Shown here one piece after another: positions 11,144 to 54,846 of a stretch of DNA of 64,000 nucleotides (position 1 is its first letter; each line of letters starts with the position of its first letter). The notes under the pieces were generated by a model. It did no database searches. It worked only from the letters and a program-made list of their open reading frames with translations, and was not told the DNA's origin. Made by a program: the position numbers and the translations under genes. Source of the DNA: Cyanidiococcus yangmingshanensis (taxonomy: Eukaryota > Rhodophyta > Bangiophyceae > Cyanidiales > Cyanidiaceae); assembly GCA_013995675.1 (NCBI GenBank), contig VWRR01000001.1:372001-436000 (forward strand). Direction: 5' to 3'.

Positions 11144-12080
11144 TCTCGGAAAAGCCTTTCGCCTCGACAGTGACGTTCAGATTGCAAAACAAACGCGGTT
11201 GTACGAGGTAAATATGCGCGTTTGCGCTCCAAATATAATTGCAAGTACGGCACGTACATCAAGTGCGCCCGTGTCAAACATCCACGATGCGATGAATTCG
11301 CTATGTGGGTACACCGACACGGAATCCATGGGATTTTGGATTCTCTGATGTAAGCGGACCCTTCGGATACAATGCCCTAATTATTCGGTTTCTGCGCAGA
11401 TTTCAGACGTTTGCATCTGAACGAGTCACTTGTCGCTGATGGTCGAGTCAGCTGCTTCCACTCGCCTTCCTAATATTCGCAAGCTCGCCATTACATTGGT
11501 CAGCTTCCCAAAAGGGTCCATGTAGGCAGAATGAGGACTAAACGACAGCGTCCTCTTTCGAAAAATGCGACAGCGATGAGTCAATCATTTGCCATGCGAG
11601 ATGATCGTGGAAGAAGCGTGGCGGTTGAAATTCTACTGGTCCGGCTCAATCCTTGAAATTTCGGAGAAGCCATTGGCGTCGTCAACTCTCCCATCGAATG
11701 ATTTTCCCACCAATGTGTTGGCATCTAATCAAGTGAATTCTCGAAATGAGCCGCTCCGTCGAGCGCTTTGGAACCGCGTATTGTGTCTAATTTCTTTTGC
11801 ATGCTTCTGAGACTGCATCTGAAGAAACGAATACTTCAAATGTGACTTGGATTGCTGGCAGCGAGATATCCGGTATGGCGTGCTGCACCAGAGACGAGAC
11901 GGACTCTTCTGCAGGCGTTCGTCCAGTCAGCAACGTAGTGTTGGCGCGTTAAGCGTGCAGGTTTGCTCTTTCTTACAAGGTTATTCAGTCTAAACTTCAG
12001 GCTGCTATTTTACAACGAACCTTGTCGCATTGACCATTCGACCGCCTAGTTTGCTTGAAGCAGACGGCTCAGGGTTTGTG
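11144..12080. promoter_or_regulatory. Divergent intergenic region, RXT3-like / SufE-MnmA
   Basis: About 0.9 kb between divergently transcribed genes, presumably containing both promoters. The MnmA frame is open from 11994 but has no ATG before 12081. A pyrimidine-rich stretch ending in CTTCAG at 12000 could be a 3' splice site, so an upstream leader exon is possible. No gene or known motif was found. Confidence 0.4.
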
Positions 12081-13997
12081 ATGTTTTCTGGGCCCCTGCT
12101 GGAACGAGGACACCGAAAGGGTCTGGCAAAGTGCTCAAAGTTTGAGCAGCGACGTCCCAAGGAGCCACTCAGGCGCTCTCGGTTCACAAGACGGGCGCAG
12201 CTGCTCACTAGGCTGCTTTCGAGCTCGGGGAACCACAACACAGAGAACGTGGAGCATTTTCAACATGGTTGGAAATCGGATGTACTTTTCTCCAGCGAAG
12301 TGGAATCTTTACGTGCTCGTCTTTGCTCAGCGCCGAGTGCAAAGTCAAGAGTCCTGGCGTTGATGGACCACGCTAGCGTCTGTTTGGAGCCCTTAGCGCC
12401 TCATGAACGAACGGAACTTACTCGCGTTCACGGCTGCGCTTCTGCGACGTTCGCGAAAGCTCTGTTTGAGGAGGGAAATAATGGAAATATATCAGTTCGT
12501 TGCATACAAGGTTTTTCCGATTCACGCCTCTCAAAGGGAATTTTAGCGCTATTATCGACTGTGCTGCATGGCATGACGTTGTCAGAAATACAGTCATTGC
12601 ATCTGGGCTCTCTTTTTGATGCGCTCTGCTTGAGACATATTGCTCTATCTCCTCGCATGGGCGGGGCGAGTGGTATTTTACGTCACGTTGAGTCACAAAT
12701 GCGCGTGTTCCTCGAACAGAGCAGGCGTCTAGAGGATACGCAAAATTCGTGCGGCTTTCACAGGCAGAGCGAACTGCTTGAAGCGCGTATATCAAACTTG
12801 TCCACGGACGCCCAGGCGGAAATTGCGGTACTTCTATCAGGCGGGGTTGATTCCGCGGTCGCAATGGCTCGACTTTTGGAGAAAGGCTTGAAGGTCCAGC
12901 CTTTTTACTTGAAAATATGGTTGGAAGACGAGTTGGTGGACCTCAACAGCTGCCCGTGGGAGGACGACATTCGTCACGCCGAGCAGGTTTGCTCAACGCT
13001 CTCTCGCCGATACGATGTGAAGCTGCAGCTGGAAATGCTATCACTTCAGGATGAGTACTGGAATCGTATCGTGCGTTACACTGTAGATGAGGCCCAAGCG
13101 GGGCGCACGCCGAATCCTGATGTAATGTGCAATAGTCGAATCAAGTTCGGCGCATTTCTTGACAGTGTCGGTAAGAGCTTTCGGTATGTGGCCAGCGGCC
13201 ACTACGCTCAAGTGCAGACTGGAATGATGACGGCAGCCAGTGGTGAGAGGCTTTCTGTAGCACATCTTTTGCGTTCTCGAGATCCTGTTAAGGATCAAAC
13301 GTATTTTCTGTCCCAGCTTAGCCAGGAGCAGTTACTGAGGGCAGTTTTCCCGATAGGTGATTTGATGAAAACAGAGGTCCGCATGCTCGCTCGAGAACAT
13401 TTTGAATTGCCGAATAATGACCGCCCAGATTCTCAGGGTATTTGTTTCTTGGGAAAATTGAAATTTGACCAATTTCTGGAGCACTATTTGGGAACGCGAA
13501 CAGGGTCTATAGTAGAGGCGGAGTCGGGGAGGATTCTAGGCGCGCATCGAGGCTACTGGTTCTACACCGTAGGGCAACGGAGAGGCCTCGCGCTCCCTGG
13601 AGGGCCCTGGTATGTAGCTGGAAAGGACATAGAAAACAATCTTGTGTTTGTGAGTCGAAATCGCTCTGCATATGAATCAGACACTAGCGTATTTTACGTG
13701 GAAAATGTGAATTGGATTGGAATCAAACCGAAAATTTCTGGAACGGAGAAGATCCTTTGTGAAGTGAAAATTCGCCACGGTCCCAGGGCTGTCAAGGGGG
13801 AGCTGTCTCGTGCAGATTTGGGAGGTGATTCTTGGTTAGTTCGTCTTCGCGAGAGAGAATCCGGAATCGCGCCTGGCCAGTTTGCGGTTTTCTATGTAGG
13901 AAATGAGTGTATTGGAGGAGGAGTTATTGTCCTAGCCTCTAGGGAGTTAGCGTTTCGTAGTGCAGACCAGCTTGCCACTGGCAAGAGCTTATATTAG
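12081..13997 (+). CDS. MNMA: SufE-MnmA fusion: tRNA 2-thiouridylase with sulfur-acceptor domain
   Basis: A 638-residue protein that should make 2-thiouridine at wobble position 34 of tRNAs for Lys, Glu and Gln in an organelle. The C-terminal two thirds are MnmA/TrmU: PP-loop SGGVDS (253-258), NPDVMCN with the first catalytic Cys (350), ASGHYAQ, KDQTYFL, and GICFLG with the second Cys (455). The region of about residues 75-215 matches SufE/CsdE: HGC with the sulfur-accepting Cys at 119, then SKGILALL, LHGMTLSEI, and LSPRMGG followed by GILRHVESQ. A SufE domain takes persulfide from a SufS-type cysteine desulfurase, so the fusion would pass sulfur directly to the thiolase. The N-terminal about 60 residues are basic and may be a transit peptide. 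Both active-site sets look intact. ATG 12081 is the first in the open frame. Confidence 0.88.
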   Translation: MFSGPLLERGHRKGLAKCSKFEQRRPKEPLRRSRFTRRAQLLTRLLSSSGNHNTENVEHFQHGWKSDVLFSSEVESLRARLCSAPSAKSRVLALMDHASVCLEPLAPHERTELTRVHGCASATFAKALFEEGNNGNISVRCIQGFSDSRLSKGILALLSTVLHGMTLSEIQSLHLGSLFDALCLRHIALSPRMGGASGILRHVESQMRVFLEQSRRLEDTQNSCGFHRQSELLEARISNLSTDAQAEIAVLLSGGVDSAVAMARLLEKGLKVQPFYLKIWLEDELVDLNSCPWEDDIRHAEQVCSTLSRRYDVKLQLEMLSLQDEYWNRIVRYTVDEAQAGRTPNPDVMCNSRIKFGAFLDSVGKSFRYVASGHYAQVQTGMMTAASGERLSVAHLLRSRDPVKDQTYFLSQLSQEQLLRAVFPIGDLMKTEVRMLAREHFELPNNDRPDSQGICFLGKLKFDQFLEHYLGTRTGSIVEAESGRILGAHRGYWFYTVGQRRGLALPGGPWYVAGKDIENNLVFVSRNRSAYESDTSVFYVENVNWIGIKPKISGTEKILCEVKIRHGPRAVKGELSRADLGGDSWLVRLRERESGIAPGQFAVFYVGNECIGGGVIVLASRELAFRSADQLATGKSLY

Positions 13998-20752: not shown

Positions 20753-22684
20753 CTAGGTATTCGGTTTCAAGGTTTCAAACAGAGCACTGTAGTTTCTTGT
20801 GGGAGCTCTAGTGGTTGGAGCATACGGGCTGTCAAACAAATCAAACGTGACGTTGCATGCGCGAGCGTCCAGCAAACTTGCGACGCAAACATCGGCAACA
20901 TCAGCCCGAGATATCTTTTTGGCGAAGGGTGTTCGAACGACCTCGGCTGCAACAAGGCCGGTAGAGAGGTCCCTGTTTTCTATCTGAGTCTGGTCGAAAG
21001 CTATGCTATTCAGACCTCCAGGTTCATCGGTCAACACCCCGGTGCGCATGATACAGTATGATAGACCGCAGGTCTTGAGCGCCTCCTCAATGTCACGTTT
21101 GCGCGTAATTTCTACTAAATCCCTCTGAACTCCCATGCAAGAGACCAAAATAAACTCTGGCTCGTCCTGTGTCCGAAAAGCTTTCAGATAATCCATGGTC
21201 AGATAAAAGGTGCCCTTCCTGGAAGGGAACCCATCGAATGAATAGGAAGTCAAGTTTTCGCGTGCCTCATACTGGATGCCGATTTGCGTAATCTCTGAGA
21301 AGTCAAATACGGTGGCATCGCGTATTTCTCCGCGTAGAAGGGCGCGATCAGATAAGCGTTGTGGAACAAAATCTGGAAAGGCTAGTCGAACAGTAATCCA
21401 TTTTCTTGCTGGCATCGTCGAAAACGTTGAAATGAACTGCATACCATTCGCATTGCCGGTCCTGGTTCGAATGACCAATGAATATCGCTGCCCATCACCG
21501 AGACATCGGAGAATCATTCCCGAGAATCCACTAAAGTTCAGGGGATTCTCAGAAAAGTTTGTTGTAAAGACTTCCGCCTGGCCTCGATACACATCCCGCA
21601 GCTTCCCGCGGAATACTGCATTACCGTAGTTATTCAGCTCAAAAACAGTCGATGAAAGACGATCGCGGAGCCGGCTGTTTTCGATAAGGCCTCCATTGGA
21701 TAGATTCGGACTGTTACGAGCTTTTGCGGCCGCCAATGTGTCCGAATCAGTTGTGTTTTCTTCACGCGATGTAGCCGTAACCATTGTCGTCTGCTGATTT
21801 TCCGGACAAGACCAGAGAGAAAAGTGACGCGGTCTGTTAAGCTTGAATATCGTGACTTTGGCCGAATCTCGGCGCCCAAACTCCAGGAAACGCGCGTCCT
21901 GAAATGCCTTCAGTAGGTTTGACACCGCCTCCTCTTCGCGTCCCGAGTCACCGGATATTGTGCAGATTACCTTATCGACACCGTACACTGCCTCCAACAG
22001 AGAGTCCTTGTCAAGCAGATCTGCTTTAGCGTACTCGCATCCGGTGCCAAGTTCATCTAAAGTTTCAGGCGATAGATTGCGCACAAGAGCGCGTACTCGG
22101 AAACCCTGGAGAAGCAGCTTGCGGACGATGAGACGTCCCGTTCTTCCGGCAGCCCCGGCCACAAGAACCAGAGGAATAAGGCCCTCTTCATCGTCATCAT
22201 AAAAGTCTGCAGGAAGGTCAGGAGCGTTTCTGGGCACAGCAGTGGCTTGCTTGCCGGAGCCCTCTGAAAGAGGGGTCGTTCTTCGCAACGCTTCAAGGAA
22301 ACTTTGAAATTGTCTGAAAACTCTATCGAAAAGCATAACGAGTCCGCTATGAGGCGCTGGATTAGCTGAAGTCCGTCGTCGAAACTGTGACCCATGAATG
22401 CCAAAGAAGCAGTTGAACAAGCAAATTCGTTCCAGAGTACCAAACTGGTCAACAACGAAAGCACCAACGTATGGCTGTGTGTATCGGCTTGCCCCAAAAG
22501 CGTGAACTGCGCCTTCCCTGTGATCGCGGTGAGCCAGTCGACGTCTCCACGTCCGGGCATTATTACTTTTGGCTTGGATTACCCATCTCGGCCCTCTTTC
22601 TAAATAACAACGCAACAACCTACTATCTAGCAGCGAAGCGTGGCAGAATCCGGCTTGCACTGGGTGCCCCTCTTTACAGAACAT
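20753..22684 (-). CDS. HCF173: HCF173-like atypical SDR with CIA30 domain, plastid
   Basis: A 643-residue protein with a split atypical short-chain dehydrogenase fold and an inserted CIA30 domain. The Rossmann motif GAAGRTGR is near residue 175, with LLLQGFRVRALVR after it. The middle (about 340-490) has the CIA30 pattern, with FSGFSGM, GDGQRYSLV and WITVRLAF. The fold resumes with FILVSCMG, LSYCIMRTG, EPGG, AFDQ and ISRADVADVC. This order (Rossmann, CIA30, Rossmann) is that of plant HCF173, which binds psbA mRNA and drives D1 translation for photosystem II. The long N-terminal extension before residue 165 would include a plastid transit peptide; an internal Met near residue 117 is an alternative start. 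It could instead be a related algal SDR-CIA30 protein, but the C-terminal match favours HCF173. Confidence 0.75.
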   Translation of the reverse strand: MFCKEGHPVQAGFCHASLLDSRLLRCYLERGPRWVIQAKSNNARTWRRRLAHRDHREGAVHAFGASRYTQPYVGAFVVDQFGTLERICLFNCFFGIHGSQFRRRTSANPAPHSGLVMLFDRVFRQFQSFLEALRRTTPLSEGSGKQATAVPRNAPDLPADFYDDDEEGLIPLVLVAGAAGRTGRLIVRKLLLQGFRVRALVRNLSPETLDELGTGCEYAKADLLDKDSLLEAVYGVDKVICTISGDSGREEEAVSNLLKAFQDARFLEFGRRDSAKVTIFKLNRPRHFSLWSCPENQQTTMVTATSREENTTDSDTLAAAKARNSPNLSNGGLIENSRLRDRLSSTVFELNNYGNAVFRGKLRDVYRGQAEVFTTNFSENPLNFSGFSGMILRCLGDGQRYSLVIRTRTGNANGMQFISTFSTMPARKWITVRLAFPDFVPQRLSDRALLRGEIRDATVFDFSEITQIGIQYEARENLTSYSFDGFPSRKGTFYLTMDYLKAFRTQDEPEFILVSCMGVQRDLVEITRKRDIEEALKTCGLSYCIMRTGVLTDEPGGLNSIAFDQTQIENRDLSTGLVAAEVVRTPFAKKISRADVADVCVASLLDARACNVTFDLFDSPYAPTTRAPTRNYSALFETLKPNT

Positions 22685-24094
22685 GAAAAAACCCACTCTA
22701 ACGACACGAGGTCACCCTTGTTCGCAAACAAATTCCAGTGCACTTGTAACAAGCGTAGAGACCGGATTTGGTGATTCATTACCGTGCGATTGGCTCCGCG
22801 GCAGATCACCCTGCAGGGATGCTGTTCGGAAAGCGTTCCGAATGCAGCATTCCTCGACTTGTGATGTAAAGAAATTCGAGCCAGCATGAAATGGCTCATG
22901 AGGATTGCCAGATGCCTGTCGCGAACGCTGGTCCAAAGCAGCAACTGCGCTCTGACGTGCCGCTTTTTGCAAGATGGAAAGCTCGACCGAGGCCTTTATC
23001 GCGGCAATGCAAAGCACCAGTTTCCAGGCATTTGGACAAGGAAAGTCTTGTGCTTGAAGCAGCTCAGCCAAATTATCAAAGCAGCTTAGAATCATTCGAT
23101 CAAAAGATCGAAAATTCTATCATAACCTTACTTGTGGAAGAACTCATGAACTCGTCGATAAAAATCGGACAGACTTTGGAACCAATTCATTATTTCTTGG
23201 CTGGAGTTCCTCATATCAGACACGACTCGCGGGCCTCATTGGAAAACGTAAGCTGTTTAGTGGCCTCTACTGTATTTGCTATTCAAATCGCCGGACGCCA
23301 ACGATAATCAGCTGAAACTACATAAAAAATGTAGTCGTGCCAAACGGATGTTTAACGATCGTGCATGAGCACCTGTTCAGCAACAGCGTCCTCACTGAGG
23401 AGGCAGCAATGGATGGTGAGGCGAACCGATGCTTTGGGCGTAGTGGACTGACAATTTCCTCGTATGCCGCCATTATGGAATATTTTACAGCCACCGTGGT
23501 TGAGCCTGGAACCTGCGCTGGGCTTTCAAACGCAGGCTTTATGACGACTGCTTTGAGAGGCCTTTTGCTGAGCATGCTTCAAAAAAGTCGAAGGTCCTGA
23601 TTGATGAAAGTTTATTCACGTCTATCGATAATGAGGTGGCTCCCAGTAGCACTCGAAAAGAGATTTTCTAACGGGACACGTCCATAAAAGCCTTAAATCC
23701 GTGACGGTGGACCCAAAGGACGACGAAAAACAACTTCAAAGAGAGGCTGAGAAAGAAATACCCAGCTCCAGAACGTTACTGAAATCTCTCGACCGAAGCA
23801 ACTACATCGCAAAGAATACGAGCGTGCAAGTCCATACGCAGTTTTACACTTTAGTCTCCATAGATTTCCTCGGAGCCCAAAGTTTGACGCTCTGCACATT
23901 GATACAACGAAAGTTTGAAAAAAACGAAAGACTGAGAACTATCAATATGCCCAGAGCTTGATTTAGAACGAGTACAAATCATCTGTCCGGTCAGCCAAAA
24001 TCAGCTTCAATTCGCTGATTCGGCCAAACTACTGCCACAACTCTCACTTCAGCTTGGTCACAGTCCTTTTTCAAGCGAGCTCGGTGGCTCAAAA
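22685..24094. promoter_or_regulatory. Divergent intergenic region, nothing recognised
   Basis: About 1.4 kb between the divergent HCF173-like and EGY-like genes. Several short frames near 22.9-23.6 kb overlap on both strands and resemble no family. The two promoters should lie here. No repeat or RNA gene was recognised. Confidence 0.4.
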
Positions 24095-32301: not shown

Positions 32302-33769
32302 AGTAGCGTATCTCGACTTGTATGACGCGGCGAGATAATACCGTGCTGTTCAAGCTCCCATTAACGCGGCATGCCCACAAGATAGAGCCGTCGATGACAG
32401 CGTCAATTGTGCCTAGTAAACAACCGTCAGATGTGTACAATTGGAAAGCTTCACAAACTCTTTTCTAGGAAGACACTCCCCCGTATAAACGCGAAGCGCA
32501 TTTCTTTCCGTTCCGACAATTTAACGGGAAAGTGTTATTATCCGTAGCCGGAGATCACACAGCATAAGAACGTTAACATCAACAGGTTCCATCCCATACG
32601 CAAGAACATAGCGTACAAACATCGGTTCGAACCTCTTGACAGCATGGTAGACTTTGCTGCTCGAGGCTTGCGGAAAGGTCTCACCACTCTGAAAATTTTC
32701 AACATATCTAAGCGAGGCTGCGTCGAAGTAAGACAAGCTTTTGTACTGTTTTTCGATAATCGTTCATGCAGCTGAATGCCATCGAGGTTTGACGCGGTGT
32801 TCCCCAAAGGAAACAACACACTTTCGGTTTGTCTTCACACTCGATAGTCAGAGCCGTTAGCGACGATGATTTCATTACTTGACGCTTCAATGCTTTTGGG
32901 TCATTCATAGAAATCTTGAAAAAGCCCACGGTTCCTTCGCGCAACCGTAAATCGTCGCAGGAAGAAACAAAGCGTTGACAATGCACATTACCCCTGTGTT
33001 ATTGTCCAGGTATGGGTTTCAACAAAAACGAGGAGGATTCAAGTGAAAGCCCACGAGGTCTCGAATACGATCCAGTCAGTATTTTATGTAAATTGATGAA
33101 GAACTTTCCAATCAACGCAACCAGATATCGAGTAGAGGACTCCGCTGGTTTCTTCGTGATTATTCTCAGTACCCATCCGACATAATTGTACGCGCTCGCA
33201 AATCAGAGGCGCGCATCCACTGTCAGCTGGACGACCAGCGCATCAGCACAGAGGCCTGCGGGCTGACAAACCACGCCGCCGGACAGCAGCCCAGATCGAA
33301 TCGGCACCGACGGTCGCGCGCGCCACTGGTGGCCGCGCACGAGAACGCAGGCGGCCGGTTTCTTCACCGCCATGTCCCCTCGGCGATAGCGCATTCGGGT
33401 TCCGGGCGGAGACGCGACATGCGATACGCATTCCACTGCTTGCCGGGCCAGATAGAACTCGTTTCGGGACGACCAGTCCACTGAACTTGTTTGTCTGGAG
33501 CTTATTTCTCTTTCAGCGTGCTGGAACCCTGGGCAACTTGGGTGCCCTGCCACCGATAAAGCGGCGCTGGAGCATACACGCGTTATCCAACGCAGTCTGT
33601 AGCTTGTTTTTATTTCGTCAACGTTTTCAAGTTAGGTGGCTCTAGGGCGCGCTAGTTTTGGTTTGCGAGCTCTGGTTCGCTTGATGGCAGGAGCCAGGGG
33701 TTGTTGGTCTCTGCTACCGCTGCCGCTGCCGCTGCCGCCGCTGCGATTAGCTGGGCAAGCACTCGGAAC
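32302..33769. other. Intergenic region upstream of the SPX-RING gene
   Basis: About 1.5 kb without a supportable gene. A GC-rich island at about 33.2-33.5 kb with open minus-strand frames resembles no family. Just before the SPX start, the frame of that gene is open upstream but has no ATG. A GC-trinucleotide run lies in this leader. Confidence 0.4.
33718..33746 (+). repeat. CCG/CTG trinucleotide run before SPX-RING start
   Basis: An imperfect run of GCC and GCT triplets about 25-50 bases upstream of the ATG at 33770. In the SPX frame it would read as poly-alanine, but no ATG precedes it, so it is best placed in the 5' leader. Confidence 0.6.
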
Positions 33770-36016
33770 ATGAAGTACGGCCACCGCCTTCGGGCCTTCT
33801 CGGAAGTGTTTGACGGGTCGGACCGTGCGCAGCGCAGAACTCTCCCGACCAGAGTCTTCGCTGACGCCAACGCTGGCCCCGCAGCCTCGACCCAGCCGCT
33901 GCACGACGGGGGTGTAACCAGGCGTGGTGCCAGCGTTGGCGTCAGCGAAGACTCTGGCCGGGAGAGTTCTGCAGGTTACGAGACCTCCGCCTCGTCGGGC
34001 GGTGGCAGTGTTTCTCAGCGCTCGCTTTCACCTATCCCGGTGGATGAGCACAGTTCCGAGGGAGCTCCTCAAATTCAGGATCTTGTGGTTGGCCCTCGAG
34101 CACCGCCGTCGCAACTCGCAGACTTGCGCACGGAACTTTGCGAGCGTTACCGAAGCCTCTATGCTATGTACAAATCGGGGAAGAGCGCCGTTCGGTGCAT
34201 TCGCGCAGCACTCGAAGCGCATCCGTGCAAGGCGCGAACTCGTTCAGCTGCGGCGCCTGGGGTCTCCGGAAGACGCGCAAGACACCTCCAAACACTGGCC
34301 CGCACCTTGAACACAAGTCAAGTACCGTTGGCTCTGGAACGAGTTTTCGATGGGGTCTGGAGCTTTTTCGATGCGATCCTGAGGGAAATAGCAGCACTAC
34401 TTGAGCTGTTCACGGAGCGCACGGCGGATCTGGAGGATCGACTGATGCGGTTGCGTGCGCTCGGGTCTTCTGGCGGCGTGCGGAGTGCCCTCGAACTTGG
34501 CGCCGAGGCGGAGCAGGTTCTGGTTTGTCTGCAGATTGGTCAAGTTGCGATTGGCAAAATTCTGAAGAAATTCATCAAAGTGCTTGCCTGGATTGATGTG
34601 AGCGACGCGGAAGGAGATAGTTCATCGGCGTCCGTTGATCGGAGCCACCAAGGCGCTGCTGATGGATTCGGCGCTAGCGAGAGCGGATACAGCTCTACGA
34701 CGACGACTGCCAGATCAAGTGGCACTTGTGCGGACGCGGAGAGCGCCATTCATGTGATTGGTGGATCTCGCAGCGCCGAACCAGCACGGTCGACGGGCCA
34801 CGTAGCTTTGCATCTCCGGCAGACTGTCCATCTGGCGATGCGCACGTCGTTGGCGGCTGCGATGGCTGTTGAGGTGCCGGAGGACGCTTCCCTTTTTGAG
34901 CTGGTTACGCAGCTGCGGCGGTACCTCGTTCATCAGCCGTTCGTCTGTGACCACAAGCGGCTTAGTTTTCTGGTGGAACTGCGGCACCGCAAGGACTGCG
35001 CAGTCCTGGCTCTGTATCGCGCGTCCAAGCGAGCGGGACTGCCTTCGAGCAGGGCAGGGTCGTCCGGTCCATGTGGCCAGGTCTCGAGCGGTGCTGCGAT
35101 GGATTCCGAGGCCTCCACAGAGAAGAGGAATGAGCGGGCGCTTGGGGCGCTGTCGCTGCTACGTCTCGTTCTCGATGGTGATGCACCTTCCTGTGCCCCT
35201 GAGTCCGCTGCGAGTGTGAATTCGGCTGCTGTGCGTCCCAGTGCCCGTGTACGACCGTTTGTAGAGGAGTGTCGCAGCATGGCCCGCGAGCTCGAAGCAG
35301 AGCTGGCATCCGGCGAGGCGACATGGGACCCGGCGTCGCCCTACGAGGTTGCGACCCGTTTTTATCTGGCAAACACGACCTCGAGCGAGCCAGCGACCAC
35401 AATCGAGGCAGTTTATCGAGCTGCACGCGCCGTGCCTCTTTATTTTGTTTGTCCAATATGTCTGGATATGCTGTTTGAAACAACAGAGTTGGCTTGTCGC
35501 CATCGGTTCTGCACGCCCTGCGTTATGGAGGCGCGTTTCTCTGCCGAGGTTCAAGGGGCTCGCTTTCGATGCCCTCTGTGCCAGGCGGATATGGCGCGTC
35601 GCCACTGCTGCGATCCGGTGGACATGGAAAACGCCACAGCAGCGAGCCGGGCCTCTGTTGTTGACGACTCTGGAACAAGCGTTGCCATGGAGTCAAAATC
35701 CGTTGTAGAAACGACCTCTTTGACCCGCTCGAGCGAACGTCGTGCCGTTTCGGTGGATGAACTGCTGCGCGCGGCGTTTCCCGATCAGTGGCGTCTGCGA
35801 GAGCGGCAGATGCGATCGATGCGCTCGCTCCTGGAGCAAAGACGACGTTTCCGTGAGCGGCTGAAGCAGCTGGATGCAGACAAGTCCCGCTCTGGGGGTC
35901 CTGAATCACGGAGCAAGCCATCTGTATCGATTTGCGGCTGTTTCGGGGAGCGTCCTCGGTCGAAGCCGCAATCGTTGCCTTCGCGTCAGCATGCCCATGG
36001 CTCCCGAGATAGATGA
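33770..36016 (+). CDS. SPX-RING ubiquitin ligase, NLA-like
   Basis: A 748-residue protein with an SPX domain in front and a RING finger near the end. This is the architecture of plant NLA/BAH1, which senses inositol pyrophosphate and phosphate status and ubiquitinates phosphate transporters. The ATG at 33770 is chosen because SPX domains start with M-K-F/Y-G (here MKYGHRL). Later SPX elements are helices around residues 115-230 and the lysine cluster KILKKFIK (about 262-270). The RING (about 561-610) has the C3HC4 pattern: CPICL, CRHRFC, CxxC and CPLC. Ser-rich, low-complexity linkers separate the parts, and an insert after residue 20 contains a long inverted repeat. The tail is basic. Substrate and regulation are inferred from the plant family. 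Confidence 0.82.
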   Translation: MKYGHRLRAFSEVFDGSDRAQRRTLPTRVFADANAGPAASTQPLHDGGVTRRGASVGVSEDSGRESSAGYETSASSGGGSVSQRSLSPIPVDEHSSEGAPQIQDLVVGPRAPPSQLADLRTELCERYRSLYAMYKSGKSAVRCIRAALEAHPCKARTRSAAAPGVSGRRARHLQTLARTLNTSQVPLALERVFDGVWSFFDAILREIAALLELFTERTADLEDRLMRLRALGSSGGVRSALELGAEAEQVLVCLQIGQVAIGKILKKFIKVLAWIDVSDAEGDSSSASVDRSHQGAADGFGASESGYSSTTTTARSSGTCADAESAIHVIGGSRSAEPARSTGHVALHLRQTVHLAMRTSLAAAMAVEVPEDASLFELVTQLRRYLVHQPFVCDHKRLSFLVELRHRKDCAVLALYRASKRAGLPSSRAGSSGPCGQVSSGAAMDSEASTEKRNERALGALSLLRLVLDGDAPSCAPESAASVNSAAVRPSARVRPFVEECRSMARELEAELASGEATWDPASPYEVATRFYLANTTSSEPATTIEAVYRAARAVPLYFVCPICLDMLFETTELACRHRFCTPCVMEARFSAEVQGARFRCPLCQADMARRHCCDPVDMENATAASRASVVDDSGTSVAMESKSVVETTSLTRSSERRAVSVDELLRAAFPDQWRLRERQMRSMRSLLEQRRRFRERLKQLDADKSRSGGPESRSKPSVSICGCFGERPRSKPQSLPSRQHAHGSRDR
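33834..33972. repeat. 44-base inverted repeat inside the SPX-RING coding region
   Basis: The arms 33834-33877 and 33929-33972 are reverse complements with one mismatch (A against G) and enclose a 51-base loop. Both arms are read in the coding frame, so the protein carries two unrelated peptides from the same DNA read in opposite directions. The site falls in the variable linker between the first SPX residues and the main SPX helices, where extra length may be tolerated. Confidence 0.9.
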
Positions 36017-37389
36017 TGCTGTTTCGGTGGCCGAAACGAAACCGAACTTGGCTAGCTCGGCTGGCGAAGAGGTCGCGCTGCATCCACTTAGGGATCGAGA
36101 GCGACCTCGTTCTGGCTGTAGCGTCGTGTGACAGGGTCTGCTAGCTCGGAGGGATTCAATTCAAGCGGGTACCCGAGCTGAGCTGAACGCTCTCATCGCG
36201 CAGAAAGTTCCAGCCCGTGCGCAGTGCGCCACAGTTCGGCGGTTTCGATGCAGCGCGATATGGTATCAGGAGGGGCGCAATTCTCCCGGAGGCGATTCGC
36301 CTCGGATGGCAGGTCGAATCAGTTGTCGATTTGCTGCGATGAGCTCCGGAGGTGGCCCAGAGGCGCTCGCAACGACGCGATATATTTTATTTTTCGCCCA
36401 AGACCTGGACACGAAGCGTCTCCATATGAAATCCGTTTTGTGACAGCGAGTCGGCGGCGACTGAATCTAGATCGAGTCTGGAGAGCTCGCGTCTCAAGGC
36501 CGATGCCATGCCTCTGGTCGAATGCATGTGACTAGCTCGCTGCAGCGCATGAGTCCTGCTCTGGAGACACCTAGGCGGTGCCATTTGATACTGGCGGACT
36601 CGGCGATGACGTTGGTATCAACGACGTGAGGATGCCTGTGTCGAGATGAGGTCGCACTCAGCCTAGGGGCAACGTCTGCACGACAGGCGGCGCCCTTGCT
36701 GAACACTAGATGAGGTTGCCGTTGCCTCTTCTCATTGCGCCTCGAGGTCAGACGTCTTAATGAGTAGGAACGGAGCAGGCGGGTCGTTTTTCAAGCTCGG
36801 ATGCGCTGATCGCCTCTTGTAACCCGGGTGGAGAGCGTCGCGGGACGAGCGCCCACGTGGAGGTTGCTGCCTATGAGCAATGCGTACTGTCGATTGAGGC
36901 ACTCGTGGGCTCTTCGTGAAAGTTTCGGTGAATCCAATCGTCTGATACGGTGTATTGGGCAGTATAAACGGCCCGAACCACTCCGAAATGCTGCGCCTGC
37001 GTTCCCACAGGGGCTATCGTTGGTTACTGTTTGTGACATGTTAGTTCATGGGCTATGTAGGGACTTTGTTTGTCACGCTTGGTTGTTCAGGACGTGAGAC
37101 GTCTCTCTATGCTGCGTACTCAGGAGTTTTGATTATCTTCTGTGAAATTATGGGTACCTTTTGTGATTCGGCGAACCTCGAATCTGCCGGTTTAACCGGG
37201 AGTGAAAACCGATTGATCGCTCGGCGCAAAACGTGTTTCCCGGAAGACACTGGACATAGTTGCACATGAATACCCATAAATGGTCACGACATGATTTTTC
37301 GCAAGAGACGCTGAAGCGGACTGAGTTGCGGTCTCACTCGTGAAATATCTTTCAAGGACGCCTCTGGTTCTCGTGAGCTCAGCGTTAAT
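36017..37389. other. Intergenic region, nothing recognised
   Basis: About 1.4 kb between SPX-RING and PGRL1. Short minus-strand frames near 36.4-36.7 and 36.8-37.04 kb have protein-like composition but match nothing I know, and they may be remnants. The PGRL1 promoter should lie at the right end. Confidence 0.4.
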
Positions 37390-40370: not shown

Positions 40371-41945
40371 ATGAGCTCTGATCTAACGCAAACCCGGAAA
40401 GAAAAAGTTGCTGACCGCACTGGTGGCGCTCAAGGCGACATAGAAGACAGATCTCTAGCTGCCCAGCGGCGAGACCATGGAGAGAACTATGCATGGGAAC
40501 GCCGATACGAGCGTAGCTGGGATGTCATTGAAGTGAGCGAAGCAAGTGGAAAGATTTTTCGACGAGATAGCCTCGATCAACAGCGAAACCGCCATAGAGA
40601 GTTAAAGCGGCTTTTAGCGGATCCCACCTCGGCTCGCTCAGTTTGCGGAATCGGTCGCTCGCTTGGCCTCATACGCTTTCTAGTTTTTGCACTCGACCTT
40701 TCTGCAGCAGTGCGCTCCAGGTCAAGGTCCAGTCTGAGCAGCGCGTATCTAGATTTGAAGCCCTCTCGTTGGGTGGCGTTGTTGTCAGGAGCACAATATT
40801 TCGTGCGAGAGTTCTTCAACGAAAATGCTGTTTCCCAGTTGGCGCTGGTGATACTTCAGGAAGGAATTGCAACCCAAGTCACGGAAATGTCGGGCTCTGC
40901 TCGTCTGCATCTCGATGCCCTGAATGCACTTCGAAAAGGTACTAGCAAATTTCTTCGCAAAGGCGACGGTGGCCAAGCTTCTCTTCAAAACTGTCTAGAA
41001 CTAGGGCATCGAATTCATGCGACTTTGCCAAGATTCGGAACGCGCGAAATGCTTATTATATACGGGGCTCTATCCACGTGCGATCCGAATGACATACACC
41101 AAACGATACAAGGTTGCGTCCTAACCAACATCCAAGTGAGTATCATTGGATTGGGCGCGGAGGTTTTCATTCTGCGCGCAACAGCGGAACGAACGGGTGG
41201 AACTTATCGAGTACCCGTACAGAATGATCATTTTAGACAGCTGCTTCGGCAGCAGGTTCGCCCGCCGCAAGGTCCTGGTCGCTCGACACGCACAAGCCAA
41301 CCGGATTCCCAAGGAGTTGTGATGCGGATGGTCATGGGCTTTCCACCGAGGCTCGCTCGTGAACGTCTGGCGATCACGATAGACACTCGGCGTGCGCACC
41401 GCCTAGGATTCGAGTGCCCGCAATGCAGGCAGTGGCTCTCCGAGGTGCCCGGAAACTGCATCTTGTGCGGGCTAACCTTAACGAGCGCGCTGCATTTGGC
41501 GCGCTCCTACCATCATATCTTTCCGGCGTCTCTTTTCGAGGAGTATCATGAATTCTCTTCACCATCATCAAGCTCACCCATAAGTAGCGATGATACGTCT
41601 GAAGACCTCGCGCGAGTGAGACATAGGGCTGATCAGTTCCCAAGAGACGATACTCTCAGTTGGCAATGCAGCGGTTGCCTCAGAGACTTGCCCATATCTA
41701 ATAATCTTCGATTACAGTGTTCGGGTGTGTGCAAAAAACTCTTTTGTATCGAATGTGATCAGCTCGTGCATGAGCGCACGCACATTTGCCCGGGATGTCT
41801 TGCCGTGCTTGTGGGTAGACGAAAGGAACTCTTTTCTCAAAAGTTCGTTCAGAATGGCGAATCGGGCGACAGGTTTGAAAGATCCGAAGTTCAGGTTGCC
41901 TCTGGGATGTTTCCATCAGCCAAGGCAGAGTTTCTTTCAAGCTGA
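40371..41945 (+). CDS. SSL1: TFIIH subunit p44 / SSL1
   Basis: Core subunit of transcription and repair factor TFIIH that activates the XPD helicase. The 524-residue protein shows the von Willebrand A-like domain (about 30-260), with WDVIEVSE, a degenerate metal site in FALDLSAAV, SQLALVILQ and IIYGALSTCDPNDI. Zinc modules follow: CPQC and CILCG (about 350-370), and the C-terminal RING-like C4C4 domain with CSGC, CSGVC, CIEC and CPGC. A Ser-rich linker between the zinc modules lengthens it beyond human p44 (395). The ATG at 40371 is the first in frame. The last 55 bases overlap the convergent zinc finger gene. Confidence 0.92.
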   Translation: MSSDLTQTRKEKVADRTGGAQGDIEDRSLAAQRRDHGENYAWERRYERSWDVIEVSEASGKIFRRDSLDQQRNRHRELKRLLADPTSARSVCGIGRSLGLIRFLVFALDLSAAVRSRSRSSLSSAYLDLKPSRWVALLSGAQYFVREFFNENAVSQLALVILQEGIATQVTEMSGSARLHLDALNALRKGTSKFLRKGDGGQASLQNCLELGHRIHATLPRFGTREMLIIYGALSTCDPNDIHQTIQGCVLTNIQVSIIGLGAEVFILRATAERTGGTYRVPVQNDHFRQLLRQQVRPPQGPGRSTRTSQPDSQGVVMRMVMGFPPRLARERLAITIDTRRAHRLGFECPQCRQWLSEVPGNCILCGLTLTSALHLARSYHHIFPASLFEEYHEFSSPSSSSPISSDDTSEDLARVRHRADQFPRDDTLSWQCSGCLRDLPISNNLRLQCSGVCKKLFCIECDQLVHERTHICPGCLAVLVGRRKELFSQKFVQNGESGDRFERSEVQVASGMFPSAKAEFLSS

Positions 41946-42851
41946 CGAAACCTTTCCGCCGATGAGTCGCGCGCCTCGCTTTCTGCGGAGCCCTCCATCT
42001 CATCTGAATCATCATGATGCTCTCTCTCGAATTCTTTCAACTCCTCAAGCGCCTTCGCGGCGTCCTTAAGATCGCCGCATCCAAAACAACGACTGCATCG
42101 CTCTCTACGGAAACCGCCGCAGAGGGGGCATTTCATCAAATTTCCATGCGGCAAGAGCACTGGCAAGTGAACCACAATGCGGCGATTCTTCATGTTAGAC
42201 TGGAATTCACGCGTACGAATAATGCCACGTCCATTACAGTATTCACAGTTCTCCCAGCCGGTGCCGTTACATGCTGAACAGCGGGTTTTCGCTCGGCGCG
42301 CTGCAAATGGTCGCAGGGTTTCCAGACGACGCAGGTATCCCACGCTTTCTAATATCCTCTGCCTTGCTAGTTCTAGTTTGGCTCTCCAGTGGCTGTCCTT
42401 CGAGTTGGGTGGTCGCTGGTATGTCAAAAGACTCTGCGGTACACGCGCAGGCGCGTATTTCTCGATGTTTTTGAGCATATCTATTTTGCAAGCCTCTCCA
42501 GAACAGTGGCACTCTTTCCAGTTTGGTTCGGATATAAGGAACTCTTCCTATTTGCTGATGGTGCCCCTCGGCATCAATCAGTGGCTGGACCTTAAGGTTC
42601 GAAAGCGTTTCGGTTGACACTCGATTCTGAGCGAGAAACGCCGAGGCTTCATTGACGTTCTCTGTTTGTTGAGGCTCTCGTTCGGCGTTATCCTTTTGCC
42701 CCAGGTGTTTCCTCCCCAAGGCTACCTCCTCAGCGACCGCTTCCGTCTTCTTTACGGGTTTTGCAGCCTGATGCTGCTTCCGCAAGGGTTTTCGCGGGGA
42801 AGACTCTACACAGCTTAAAACCGCGGAACAGGAAAAAGAAAAGATAAACAT
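41891..42851 (-). CDS. DnaJ-type Cys-rich zinc finger protein, probably two exons
   Basis: The C-terminal frame (41891-42478 from its own ATG, 195 residues) has a DnaJ-like Cys-rich zinc domain: CSACNGTG, CEYCNGRG, CPLCGG and CSRCFGCG. This layout occurs in plastid proteins such as BSD2 that help assemble complexes. Upstream, a second frame begins with ATG at 42851 and a hydrophobic, signal-like N terminus. A candidate 43-base intron (42548-42590, GT-AG on the minus strand) joins the two in frame as 41891-42547 plus 42591-42851, giving 305 residues. The intron has a weak donor (GTCCAG), so the single-exon model remains possible. The acidic C terminus overlaps the end of TFIIH p44 by 55 bases. 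Plastid function is inferred. Confidence 0.6.
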
Positions 42852-47763: not shown

Positions 47764-49604
47764 TCAGTCTCCGGACCGTCCGCAATCTGCCCCATCTATG
47801 CTAAATATCTCGACACCCTCCGAGACAGCGATGCGCATCTCTTCAAGGACATCAACAACATCGCGTCCAGTGTGTTCGCTATCTGAATCTCTGTTTCTAG
47901 TGTATGCTCGTAGGCTGCTCTGTTCTGATACGGAAGATGCTGAGGAGCTGAGTGCATTCTGACCTTCAAAGTGGCGAGGTCCTGTGCGAAGACCGCTGTT
48001 TCGTGCATCTAGATAGTCACCAAACGCGTGCAAGGCATGCGGAGCCACATACGTGAATGCAACGAGATAGGTTTCAGGTCGGGGGCTGGTTTGAATGCCT
48101 GGTGACGTGTGTGGAGAAATATTCAAACTTGCGTCGCGGACCGATGTCGAGCAGCTCGTGGTGCTCTCGACAGGAATTTCCTCCGTTGCAGGTATTATCG
48201 GCGGTCGCTCCAGACGCTCACGCACGCGCCTCCAAGAAACACCGCGGAACCAACGGTGGTGCCGTAAGCGTAGGGCGTTGCCCAGTCTTTCGTCTGGGAG
48301 AGCGACACAGCAGCTGCCGCACAAGCGATTGAGCCTCGGTCGATAGATAGTGTGGGAATTTGACCTTTGCCCTCATGATCCGCTTGTAGAGTGCCTCACG
48401 CGAGAAAACATTTTCTGGTGCTCCCTTCTCTTTCGGGTTGCCTGAGGCCACCTCCGGGTGCATTACTGCTGGAATGGCGTCCACTATCCGGGGTCGACGG
48501 ACGGCGGCGTTTGCCACACAGACCTTGTGCTTTCACTGAGAAAGGCGGCTCCCCAGTAAGCATCTCGTAAATGAGGCACCCATATGACCAGTAGTCTGCA
48601 GCAAACGAGTGACCCTCGCGAGCGAGCAACTCAGGCGCCATGTAGTGCTCTGTGCCGCACCATGAATGCGTCAAACATTGCACCGCATCGATTTCAGATG
48701 AATGGTTCTCCGACAGCTGCGTCTGCTCAACGGATGCCGCACTATTCACGTTAGAGTCTTCACCAAAGCCTTTGGAGGCAAGAGATTCACGCTGACAATT
48801 CGGCCGCGTCTCGACCATCGGGCAAGCGAATGATGAGGGCGTATCAGTCTCAAGTCGACCCATGCCTGCCTTGCTTAACCCGAAGTCAGTCAACGCTACA
48901 TGTCCTTCATGATCGAGCAGCACGTTTTCGGGTTTTAAATCCCGGTGTACAATTCCCATAGAATGGAGATGCTGCAACGCAATGAGCATTTCTGCCGCGT
49001 AGAAGCGCGCAACTTCTTCACTAAAGAGGGCTTCCTTACGCAGATGCTCCATAAGAGGCCCACCACGTAAGTAGTCCATCACTAGAAACACTCTCGAAGA
49101 TGTCTGGAACGCGCAATGCAGACGAACAATAAATGGGTGCGCTGAGGCTCGCTCAACCGCACATGCTGCACCGCTGCCTTGAGATTCCACCGTCTCTGCA
49201 CCTTTTTCATACCCGCGATCCATTAGTAGTGCTAGGATGTCTCGTTCAACACGAGCCTGTGCATGGCCGCCGCTGCGGATGAGCGCCTCTTTCTTCATAG
49301 ACTTTATCGCAAAAAAAATCCCAGTAGGTCGATGTCGAGCCAGGTACACCTTACCAAATGCACCCGACCCAAGCAGGTGGAGAATCTGAAACTGCTCCAG
49401 CCGACTGTGGCGGCTTGAGGTCCCAACTCCGGGCGGTTTCCTAGCGGAGCCATCCGCGGGGTCCCCGGCGGAGAATAACAAGTCATTCGGGCGAACTCTC
49501 ACACTGCTTTCCGGTCCACTTGCCGTTCGGATAAATATCGGAAAACTAGCATCAAGTTGCTTCTCCATGAGATTCGATACGCTTGAAGTTGATGCGGACG
49601 CCAT
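47764..49604 (-). CDS. AGC-family Ser/Thr protein kinase, S6K/AKT-like
   Basis: The kinase motifs are LGSGAFGKVYLA, AIKSMKKE, HRDLKPENVLL, DFG, activation segment SWCGTEHYMAPE and the C-tail hydrophobic motif VAFTYVAP. The last resembles p70 S6 kinase, where a TOR complex phosphorylates the Thr. Exon 1 is 49604-48524. A 109-base intron (48523-48415) is followed by exon 2 to 47764. Removing it joins PPFSVKAQ to ENVFSREALYKRI, as in AGC kinases. Within exon 2 the frame changes by +1 near 48295-48297, a GGG run on the plus strand. The conserved LLCRSP precedes the break and DERLGN follows it. With one base fewer, the product is 576 residues. Inserts of about 30 residues after helix C and about 65 in the activation loop are unusual. 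A sequence error is the simplest reading of the frame change. Confidence 0.82.
48415..48523 (-). other. Intron in the AGC kinase gene
   Basis: A 109-base intron with donor AAG/GTCTGT (minus strand, 48523) and acceptor CACCAG (48415). It has no strong branch-site consensus. It contains no stop in the exon 1 frame, but reading through leaves the kinase C-lobe out of frame. Splicing restores the expected AGC sequence across the join. Confidence 0.75.
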
Positions 49605-50374
49605 CGTGACAATATATTGGCTCTAACTAGGACGATCGTGCTCCTTTCAACCCCGACTGACAGGAGGCTAAACGCTGGAAAGGCACAACTATGCACCTCA
49701 GTCAGAGCTCGCAAGCACGCAAATTAAGATACTCCAAACAGTTCAGCTTTGATGAAAACCGCTACTTTTGGTGGCAATGGTGAGTGGCGCTTCCGTAGAC
49801 TATACCAGTTTGCTTGCGCGGCCTGTCCAGCTCCGTTCAGCTTTAGCCACGCAATGAGAGCGTTGAACCGGGCTCTTGGCTATCAATAACTGTTCAATTG
49901 GCAAAGAACCTTATTCAGTTATCTTTCTTGATGGCGGAAGCACTCGTTCTAAGTTGTTCGTGAACACATTTCGTTCTGTTGTGGCGCTCCAGCATACCAA
50001 AGCGCAATGGAATCGCAAGAAAGGTTGCGGTTTCGTGCGACGGCGGCGCCGACCAATCGGCAACGGAACCACAACATGGCCAATTCTGTGCTCCTCCTCT
50101 AGGACGGTGTTATCTATTGGTTGGTCGCGGCCTAGTCATGACATTTCACCTCGCATTCAAACATAAAAAGCGCAGGTGAAAGTGGAAAACATTCTCAAGG
50201 AATCTTCGATTGATAAACTGAACGCTGAGGGAGCTTTCAGTTGGAACTGGAAAGGGATCGAAACGAACTTAGAATTCTCCTGTGCTCTGCCATACAGACC
50301 GTCTGCGGCAAAGGTTAAAGAGACGGCCACCTGACGTCGATCGTCAATAAGAGTGAAACCAAAAATTGATAGAA
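49605..50374. promoter_or_regulatory. Divergent intergenic region, kinase / DUG locus
   Basis: About 0.8 kb between divergent genes, expected to carry both promoters. No gene, repeat or known element was recognised. Confidence 0.4.
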
Positions 50375-53300
50375 ATGTGCCGGATGGTTGCATATTTTGG
50401 CCCCCCCATTCGTGCTGCTGATGTGGTGACGAGGCCGTCCCGTTCGATTATTCGACAGTCTTATGACGCCCGTGAGCGCTTGTGCGCGGCTGGGGAGTAT
50501 GTACCAGCCTCTCTGAACGGAGATGGCTATGGGATCGGCTGGTACAGTGCTGACGGTGTCCCCTGCGTTTACAAGTCCATACGCCCAGCGTGGAACGACG
50601 CCAACCTGCATCATTTGGCAGAGAAAGGTATTCGTTCACATCTATTGTTCGCACATGTGCGAGCCGCAACGGCCGGTACATCGGTGACCGAGGAGTCATG
50701 TCATCCTTTTGCATATGGACGCTACCTGTTTCAACATAATGGTGCCATAGCTGGGTGGCGCAATGGACGAATCCGACGAGCCCTTTTGGATCAATTAAGT
50801 GATGAGCTTTACGAGTACGCTGTTCGTAACGGCGCCAGTGACAGCATCGTTGCATTTGCTCTGTTTCTGAATCAAATGAAACGTGGTACTGATGTGCAGT
50901 ATAGTGCAGCAGCTTTGCAGTGTATGCTTCTACGCACGATTGCTCTGATTTTGGAAACCACCAAAGCGTGTCTCGCGATGGTCGAATCCGAAGCTTCTAG
51001 TGCTGCGGCGTCAGGTTCGAGCAGCACGCCTCAAGACGACGTCTTCTTGCTGAATTTCGTCGTAACCGATGGCGAAACGCTGTTAGCCACCAAGTACGCG
51101 CATGGATTGCGGAATCCAGAGGCTCCAGCAGCGAGCCTCTATTTTGGTGCCGCCTCTGCATATGAACCCGTGGCAAGCGACTCGTCCACAACTGCCGGAG
51201 ATTATGCGTTTGCGTACACAGCGGCGACCCGCAGTGGAGTGGTTATTGTGGCGAGCGAACCTCTCACCTCGAACCCATGTGACTGGGTCTCGCTGCCGCG
51301 CAATTCGATCCTCGTGGTAACTGCAAATCAACATCTATTGATGGAACGGCTTCCAGAGAATTTCTCGCGATTGTCAAGAGCGGTGGCAGATTGGAATGAC
51401 AATCATGATTGGACTGATGAAAACAGCAGCATCATGATGGCACTAAGAACACTTTCTTCACAAGACCAGAGCGATTTCTTGATGGAGGCTAAACAGAAAA
51501 GCGGCAGTGCTCTTTTCGAGTCTAGTGAAACCATTATTCGTTCAAGGAGGCTAGAAAACTCATCTCGAATGGTTGGGCATGGGCTAGGAAACTCGCTCAC
51601 GGAATCAAACCAATGCAATGAACTGATTCGACTGGGAGAGCCGGATGAGATCATTCATACTGGCCAGTCGCAAGTGATCTGCATGACTGATCTGCAAACA
51701 GGGACGGAGACTGGACTGAGCATGCCGGAACGCGGGGACGCTTCCGAGAGGAACCAGCATCGCAGTATGAGTGCCGCTTCAGGGGCAGCCGCCCGAGGAA
51801 AAACACTACTCATTTGCGGGAATGGAGACGGGTCTATGTCTGCTTGGGATAGGATTTCCGGTTCCCTGTGGATTTCGTGCCCTATTTCTGTCGAAGGCCG
51901 TGGTATCCTTGGTCTAATTCAGTGGAAACCGAACGACAGATCAAGTTTGAGGAATTCGGATGGTGAATGCGATCTCGGTATCCTCACAGTAAGTTCTGCC
52001 GCCGACAACTCACTCCGTTTGCATCAGTGGACCGAAATTGGCCCCAAGCTGATCGCAGAGTTTTTCTGCGGAACTGAAACTGGGCACCCTCTGTGCCTCG
52101 CTGCTGACCAAGGTTTTATTTATATTGGATTTCAGGACTGCTCAGTCCGGCGCCTCGATATCAGCAAGCTCGCCTCTGAGCGGATCATGTTGACTAGTGC
52201 AGCAGCAATTCAGGACTTTCAGAAGTATGAATTGCTCCGCTCGGAGCTTCTGATTCGTATGGGTAACCAGTCAAGAGATGAAGATCAGCGATCAGACGGA
52301 GAACTCGACAGGGAAATTAAGATAGCCCGGCAGCACTCTGGGCCTATCCATTGCTTAGCAGTTCACTCGCGGACGCACTCACTTTTCTCGGGTTCTGGAG
52401 ACGGGACGATTGGTGTCTGGAATACTCGCGATAATACCAGAGAGACAGTGCTGCGCGGTCACCGTGGTGCTGTGCTCGCTCTCCAGATTGATGAAAAGGC
52501 CGATCTGCTTTTCTCTGGCTCCAGAGATCGTCACATTCGCGTTTGGGACATCAGTCTCAACACAAACTATGTCTGTCGTAGAGCGCTCATGAGTTGGGAG
52601 TACCATCGGAATGATATATGTGCGCTGGAGCTGTCTGAGCTCTTTTTTTTCTCTGGATCAATCGACGGAGTCATCATTGTTTGGAATCGGACGGATTTAG
52701 TGCCGCTGGCGGAGCTACGTTTTGCAGACGAAGCACCGCTCTCTCTATTAAGAGTGGGCCGCATTTCTTCAGCAAGCAGTCGAACGGATTCCCGTCGCAC
52801 TCGATAGTATGCTCTACGCGGCCAGCACTAGTGGTCGCGTCTACGGTTGGCATGTAGGCTCTTCGAGCAGCCTTTTTCAGAACGTCTACGGAAATGGACC
52901 GGATGTTTTAGAGGAAATGATGAACAATTCATCCAATGAGGAGCCGGTGTCCATCGAAATGAATCGTGCGGGTTCATCGAAAGAGATCATGCAAAACCCC
53001 TACTTGCTCCCGCTTCGCTCGCCACGACTGAAGCTTGGTGACTTTGAGCCATCAAGTGTTGCTGCTTTTGAAAGAGCACTACGCACTGCGATTCGTTTCC
53101 GTTCTATCTCAGCTGACGCGAATCATTCTAACTATAGAGATGAGTCGTTCCGATGCGCTAGATGGTTTTCTCATTTGCTGGAATCGCTCGGAGCGGATGT
53201 GCGAATGGTTCAGTCAATTGATGGTAAGAACCCTCTCGTTCTAGCGCGCTTCGCGGATGTTCTTGTTCGGACCAGAACTCAGAGCTCTTCGGCGCACACT

Positions 53301-54846
53301 CCTCAGGGGATCACGTTTCCTTTGAATGGGCACAACGAGACATGCCATCGCCAGAACATTGTTTTCTACGGTCATTACGATGTCGTTCCCGCTTTCCGAG
53401 ACGAAGGTTGGCTTTACGAGCCCTTCGACTTGCACGTCGTTGATGGCTACTTTTACGGGAGAGGAGCAACGGACAACAAAGGGCCTATTCTCTCCATGAT
53501 ATTTGCTGTTGCAGACTTGCTACAACAGCGACTACAATCCACTACTAGCGGCGTTCAGCATTCGACGTCAGAAATCATCTCCAAATCGGATACCGATCAG
53601 TACGCCATGACGAATGATCTGGAAGGAACCGGTCGCCCAAAGTTCGAGCCTGATTCCGGCAGCCCCGTATTCGATCCACTAGTCCTATCTACTGATGTCG
53701 TTCTTGTGCTCGATGGTGAAGGAGAGGCGGCAAGTGCGGGCTTTCACGAGGCAATCACAACCGTCAAAGAATGGATTGCAGGGAACGACACTGCACGGCA
53801 ATCGCAGGATGCGTCGAAATCGGAGCGAGAAAGAACCTCATCGAGTCGCACGAACCCGGCAGAGACAGTCTGCATTCTTCATGCTAACAGTCTGTGGGTC
53901 GATGATATGCGCCCTTGCATCACTTATGGCATGCGTGGGCAAGTTGTGCTCTCTGTCCAAGTCACTGGCCCAGCTCGTAATTTGCACTCGGGCTTTGACG
54001 GCGGGGCTATCGTCGAACCAGCTGTAGACTTGTTGGCAATTCTGGCGACACTCACGGATTCCAAAGGTACACCTGTCGTGCCAGGATTTTTCGATGAGGT
54101 ACGAGAGCTCATTCCTCGGGAACGTGATTGGTATGCGGCGATTGGTTTTGACAAATCGATTTACATGAAGCAACTGGGCGTACCGCGCTTGGCCACGGAC
54201 TCTGAGACTGACTTGCTACATAAGCGGTGGAGTCAACCGTGTCTTTCTGTCACGGATCTGAGCACCAGTGTCGACTGCAATGCAGAGTCGGAAATCATCG
54301 GAGAAGAACGGCTTTGGGCGTATCAGTGCTGTTTCCTCACTGATTCCGCGATACGCGCAAGCAACGATCGCAATTCGGACGGTTCCAAACCAACATCCTG
54401 ACAATCTACGGGCAGCAATCGAGCACCATTTGCATTATGAGTTTCAAAAACGGCGCTCGCCGAATCAGTTGCGGATTACCTGTACCAAACAAGGGGACTG
54501 GTGGCTCGGCGATATTGACGGCGAGCGCTTTCCTGTACGGCCCGATCAAGCTCAATTCGAAAATGTCAGAGTACGACAGAAGGTTTTCGCTGTCGCTGAG
54601 CAAGCGATCGAACGGGTGTGGGGAGTGCGTCCGCTATACGTTCGCGAAGGCGGCAGCATGCCTCTGACTGCATGGCTGGAGGAAGTCCTCGAAGCGCCCG
54701 CAATTCATTTACCTTTGGGCCAGGCGAGCGACGCGCCGCATTTGCCGAATGAGAGGATTCGAGCTCTGAATCTGTTGAATGGGAGACGAGTACTTGCAGA
54801 GATAATCAGAATGCTCGCGGAGCGCGACCAACGATTTTTAACATGA
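50375..54846 (+). CDS. DUG2/DUG3: DUG3-DUG2 fusion: glutamine amidotransferase, WD40 and M20 peptidase, in three frames
   Basis: In yeast, Dug3 and Dug2 form the complex that cleaves glutathione outside the gamma-glutamyl cycle. Here both occur in one locus. Segment 1 (50375-52807) starts Met-Cys, leaving the catalytic Cys of class II amidotransferases at the N terminus, with DGYGIGWY, HVRAAT and FQHNGA. WD40 repeats follow (SGSGDGTIGVW, SGSRDRHIRVWD, SGSIDGVIIVW). Segment 2 (open to 54401) continues the WD40 domain with LYAASTSGRVYGW and then the M20 peptidase: GHYDVV near 53370, GRGATDNKGP near 53460, and HSGFDGG. Segment 3 (to 54846) completes M20 with TIAIRTVPNQHP. The frame moves by +1 between 52750 and 52808 and again near 54315. 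Conserved sequence runs right across both, giving about 1490 residues if joined. Sequence error, recent decay or splicing are all possible. Confidence 0.8.

Follow-up and report, generated by a model that had tools for sequence, protein, structure and literature searches.

Can both subunits of the Dug2-Dug3 glutathione-degrading complex be carried by one polypeptide outside fungi? The question is raised by a locus at positions 50375-54846 on the plus strand of a 64-kb stretch of DNA (contig VWRR01000001.1, positions 372,001 to 436,000; hereafter the window, within which positions are numbered). Published descriptions give two different proteins, Dug2 and Dug3, for the yeast complex (PMC7617739) and limit its occurrence to fungi (PMC7340319). 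The locus contains an amidotransferase, WD40 repeats and an M20 peptidase domain, in that order on the plus strand, and probably encodes one polypeptide of ~1,490 residues, which would be a single-chain glutathione gamma-glutamyl hydrolase and a covalent version of (Dug2-Dug3)2. A one-chain Dug3-Dug2 product is itself very likely and, given such a product, glutathione is quite likely to be its main substrate.

The first part of the locus (50375-52804) is a single open frame of 810 codons that begins Met-Cys, and Pfam scores both GATase_4 and WD40 inside it. The coordinates and the Met-Cys amidotransferase start proposed in an earlier note on this DNA therefore hold: the frame starts at 50375, remains open to 52804 and matches both GATase_4 and the EgtC model. 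The class II glutamine amidotransferase (GATase) domain occupies residues 1-335 (50375..51379) and is identified by Pfam (GATase_4, 8.4e-13, residues 49-188), NCBIfam (TIGR03442, EgtC, 9.3e-51, best stretch residues 1-213), PDB sequence comparison (3mdn, 3.8e-32) and Foldseek (EgtC 4zfj, 6.8e-17). The TIGR03442 equivalog cut-off was missed (172.6 vs 218.65 bits). The nearest solved folds are those of EgtC, including its natural-substrate complex 4zfl, and 3mdn. EgtC cuts the gamma-Glu-Cys bond, which is the same bond as in glutathione. Residues C2, H94, R96, H121-N122-G123 and D156, which make up the site of class II GATases, show no variation among the aligned rows (30/30, window protein included), and the active site of the amidotransferase is, as judged from these residues, intact. 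An AlphaFold2 model of the 810-residue frame was computed from 30 rows, comprising the window protein and 29 of the best 80 of 585 prokaryotic loci. The GATase domain is mostly good in this model, with 10-residue blocks mostly at 80-97 and loop dips to 42-65.

The GATase and WD40 domains are joined by a linker of 90 residues (51380..51649), which was identified by stop count and codon score. Read in the GATase frame it has no stop codon, compared with 6 and 9 for the two alternative forward frames, and codon scoring also prefers the GATase frame (12.5 vs 4.6 and 8.0). The AlphaFold2 model places helices within residues 330-398 at middling to low confidence. At this joint the frame passes from GATase to WD40 without a stop or gap. 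The order is that of Dug3 followed by Dug2, because yeast Dug2 is a WD40 protein with an M20 domain. As the joint lies within one unbroken frame, the fusion is supported more strongly than the earlier note had argued when it proposed the order Dug3-Dug2. The joint depends on neither of the two frame breaks in the locus, both of which sit within the Dug2-like half.

The WD40 repeats of the first frame (51650..52804) were detected by Pfam (1.4e-16, in two stretches, the best at residues 691-725) and comprise six WD-like motifs at residues 476-493, 535-554, 579-596, 668-683, 710-725 and 756-771. These motifs were picked by eye; a regular expression fits five of them and misses 535-554. The second frame (52752-54398, plus strand) contains a seventh WD-like motif, also read by eye (MLYAASTSGRVYGWHV, 52809..52856), and the first part of the M20 domain. 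The six-motif WD40 part and the M20 domain are therefore present in order and on one strand, but separated by the first break.

The first part of the M20 peptidase domain (52995..54398) was identified by Pfam (7e-13) and by PDB matches to carnosinase (1.8e-38) and DUG1 (1.1e-30). The third frame (54262-54846, plus strand, stop codon at 54844-54846) contains the last part (54331..54846), namely the end of the dimerisation domain and the C-terminal catalytic part, with a PDB match to DUG1 (7.7e-17). Taken apart, the second and third frames score 7e-13 and 0.0039 with Pfam M20, respectively, and the third scores 3.6e-4 (20.9 bits) with M20_dimer. When the second break is read through, M20 improves to 1.1e-17 over positions 1-205 of 206, M20_dimer to 1.1e-5 (25.8 bits vs a cut-off of 21), and the PDB matches to 7.7e-52 for carnosinase 3dlj and 2e-48 for yeast Dug1. 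Read in this way, the two halves give one full-length match.

The M20 domain was aligned with relatives from eight bacteria and one archaeon and numbered on the read-through protein. Residues H127, D129, D160, E244, H331 and H582 are kept in the window protein. Two other positions of the site are altered: a Gly (53721-53723) replaces the Glu preceding E244, and an Asn (53886-53888) stands at position 298, where Glu and Asp, respectively, occur in all nine prokaryotic proteins. In M20 enzymes the replaced Glu is the general base and the replaced Asp a metal ligand. Yeast Dug2 is reportedly composed of WD40 and M20 without peptidase activity; its WD40 part reportedly binds Dug3, and its M20 part mediates dimerisation. 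The altered site is in line with that lack of activity, and the M20 domain appears changed as would be expected of a Dug2-type scaffold. The Gly and Asn codons are each one base from the usual codon and lie in a stretch of doubtful quality, so a sequence error may also account for them; the residues surrounding them differ too.

Inclusion of the M20 domain in the chain requires +1 frame changes at both breaks. The first lies within 52752..52804, an interval bounded by stop codons, and the second within 54262..54336, with a stop codon as lower bound and the M20 alignment as upper bound. A model of codon usage, for which 16 other window frames served as the training set, was applied to the whole window and returned 50360-54837 as one coding unit with +1 changes near 52751 and 54309. 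The three segments of the locus contain no in-frame stops and the expected frame is the top-scoring of the three forward frames in each, although by small margins in 52809-53000 (5.1 vs 2.0) and 54331-54843 (16.8 vs 12.9). The neighbouring gene, an AGC-type kinase on the minus strand (47764-49604; identified by Pfam, its type read from PDB matches), is likewise spread over three frames with two +1 changes. Its first frame matches Pfam at 1e-56, and the other two are without a Pfam match at 1e-4. At its second break both frames, one base apart, align to the same motif, LLxRxPxxRLG, found in known kinases (best E 1e-4 and 6.8e-4), which leaves no room for an intron and makes this change a plain one-base shift. 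The kinase breaks suggest that sequence errors are concentrated locally, between 48 and 54 kb, and, given the plain shift in this gene, a sequence error or a recent one-base indel is the likeliest explanation for the two breaks of the Dug-like locus. The single locus and chain claimed in the earlier note stand as far as Dug3 joined to the start of Dug2; the inclusion of M20 hinges on two frame changes, for which sequence error is a probable explanation.

Several observations weigh against the account given so far. Joining the frames over the first break leaves the Pfam WD40 score flat (1.6e-16 vs 1.4e-16), and the seventh motif was missed by both the motif pattern and Pfam, so the seventh blade is a by-eye reading. 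Of the proposal that WD40 spans the first break, one by-eye WD-like motif past the break thus survives, without support from pattern or score. The WD40 part of the AlphaFold2 model is of no confidence (blocks 22-60), and no claim on WD40 is drawn from it. Orthology to Dug2 and Dug3 is proposed from architecture. The second break falls within 15 alignment columns that are absent from the nine prokaryotic M20 proteins, and these extra columns make a short inserted segment possible. Finally, the codon model places six frame changes in the window (near 35909, 42350, 48485, 48247, 52751 and 54309), and all six are +1, which is unexpected for random one-base errors. For those near 42350 (41891-42851, minus strand) and 35909 (33656-36104, plus strand), the family searches made gave no support across the change.

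The uniform +1 direction would suit an explanation in which the cell splices out very short introns, or recodes, at the breaks. A count found GT-AG stretches of suitable length class at each break, and removal of a 40-base GT-AG stretch at the second would leave the M20 spacing no more than 2 residues off that in the prokaryotic alignment. Such pairs are, however, probably common by chance for a given length class, and the kinase shift offers no intron room. The clear intron of the window, in a valyl-tRNA synthetase gene (5888-6057, plus strand), has ~170 bases with a GTAAGT donor and an ACTAAC branch site, whereas neither GTAAGT nor ACTAAC is present at either break. These signals were taken from that single example, its gene name and intron boundaries being assigned from protein sequence. 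A scan of the window for the intron pattern gave a single chance-level match, no systematic intron search having been made. Short introns or recoding are accordingly considered very improbable. A decaying gene, with two real frame-shifts in the strain and a dead Dug2 half, would be compatible with two frame changes in the locus and two more in the adjoining kinase. It is nevertheless judged improbable, as the three segments lack in-frame stops and score best in the expected frame, if by small margins in two, and the like breakage of the kinase is better explained by poor local sequence quality than by decay of two genes independently.

Two further explanations accept the domains and differ in what they would form. 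A short amidotransferase transcript could overlap a separate WD40-M20 transcript started at an internal Met, for which in-frame Met codons are available in or near the linker at residues 354, 355, 370, 399 and 437; the unbroken passage from GATase to WD40 and the coding score of the linker in the same frame make such overlapping genes hardly credible. An active fusion could also have another gamma-glutamyl compound as main substrate, such as gamma-Glu dipeptides, phytochelatin-like peptides or an ergothioneine intermediate. The match to the EgtC model at 9.3e-51 and the closeness of the EgtC fold point in this direction. So do published accounts in which gamma-Glu-Met is a further substrate of yeast Dug2-Dug3, Val and Val-Gly serve as acceptors of the gamma-glutamyl group (PMC7617739, PMC6508711), and Cyanidiales already have a putative glutathione-specific cyclotransferase (PMC6629376). 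This substrate shift is unlikely, with the score short of the EgtC cut-off, EgtC-like enzymes stand-alone in the 89 prokaryotic loci described below, and a WD40-M20 half that is the Dug2 partner.

With a one-chain glutathione hydrolase preferred, the following course may be proposed. The initiator Met would be removed and Cys2 would become the nucleophile, attacking the gamma-glutamyl carbonyl of glutathione; Cys-Gly would leave and water would free glutamate. WD40 would hold the amidotransferase in the chain, the degenerate M20 would pair two chains into a dimer, and Cys-Gly would pass to a separate Dug1-type dipeptidase. Both frame breaks would then be one-base errors of assembly. The product would be expected to arise from one transcript, to reside in the cytosol and to have a fixed stoichiometry of its two halves.

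The closest known system is yeast (Dug2p-Dug3p)2, which shares the class II amidotransferase and the order of WD40 and M20, with an M20 domain that is reportedly inactive in yeast and has an altered site here. The WD40-M20 pairing is not an extra feature of the window protein, as yeast Dug2 itself is composed of WD40 and M20. The systems differ in that two proteins are described in yeast, whereas one chain is proposed here, in an alga-like genome. EgtC (PDB 4zfj-4zfl, TIGR03442) shares the fold and the N-terminal Cys and cuts a gamma-glutamyl amide, but its PDB chains are stand-alone (234-235 residues), whereas the window protein misses the EgtC cut-off and continues into WD40-M20. The M20A dipeptidases (carnosinase, CNDP2 and yeast Dug1) match the whole M20 domain, including its dimerisation domain (7.7e-52 to 2e-48), whereas the M20 of the window differs in the replaced general-base Glu and metal-ligand Asp, the extra insertions and the fusion to WD40. 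Among algae, a Dug-type contig is claimed for Euglena gracilis: ‘GSH degradosome proteins’ are listed under a single contig accession, and the passage concerned leaves the domain make-up unstated (PMC6351624). This contig counts against a restriction to fungi and is a lead for a second alga. On the best reading, the one-chain form outside fungi is what is new here, the complex itself being known from yeast as two proteins.

Relatives of the fusion were sought among prokaryotic, viral, plasmid and PDB sequences. The prokaryotic GATase loci (n=89) comprised the best 80 of 585 confirmed stretches from an alignment-based scan and 9 of 49 plasmid records. The GATase frame extends 253-316 codons from the match start in 89/89 of these loci and is stand-alone. 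Within their flanks, which vary in length, no WD40 match was found (0/89) and an M20 match was found at one locus (1/89, L065), which is weak (E 7e-4). In two phylum samples, GATase at E <= 1e-30 was detected in 17/297 genomes (19 places) and 45/299 genomes (47 places), counts that include the centres G002 and G001; control genomes gave 0/14 in both. The longest open frames among the 66 places (747 and 504) were rejected as fusions, as they are Met-Cys GATases of their own, and both adjoin genes that by eye resemble egtB and egtD. The open frames at the other 64 places have 248-386 codons and, judged by length, could not accommodate WD40 or M20 beside a GATase. Single-protein scans of genome contigs and viral contigs returned no relatives, and scanning viral sequences with the M20 alignment returned three loci, two of them short matches, none of which was used. 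Most M20 relatives came from plasmids. No algal Dug2-Dug3 fusion is named in the titles and abstract openings returned by literature searches on Dug2, Dug3 or the fusion.

The window consists mostly of single-frame genes, has a GC content of ~51% and contains a topoisomerase VI B subunit gene and one intron met in 64 kb. This gene make-up would fit an intron-poor, Cyanidiales-like red alga. Values given for Cyanidiales in the accessible text of published work are 27-46 introns and a GC content of 54.6-65.7% (PMC9812998, PMC13353863), and the GC content of the window lies somewhat under all of them. Two other multi-domain frames are present. The frame at 12030-13997 (plus strand, 655 codons) encodes SufE (PF02657, residues 101-221, 7.8e-14) followed by an MnmA-type tRNA thiolase (PF03054, 5.9e-62); a literature search on this frame surfaced work on Plasmodium, with neither a SufE domain nor a red alga. 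The frame at 20753-22696 (minus strand) combines an NAD-binding/NmrA domain (residues 176-268) and a CIA30 domain (residues 348-477).

The wider proposition, that red algae have a single-chain glutathione gamma-glutamyl hydrolase composed of an amidotransferase, WD40 and a catalytically dead M20 dimer, is advanced tentatively, at slightly less than even strength. If it is true, the DUG route would be older than fungi or transferred, rather than fungal, and the fused state may be ancestral and may have been split by fungi. The existence of such a chain in nature would show Dug2 and Dug3 to act as a unit and would support both the contact between WD40 and GATase and a scaffold role for M20; it would also provide structural studies with a simple construct. 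Algae would then have a cytosolic breakdown of glutathione besides the cyclotransferase reported for Cyanidiales, and, if the genome belongs to an alga of the acid-hot-spring type, a cytosolic route for recovery of sulfur and glutamate would be added in such algae.

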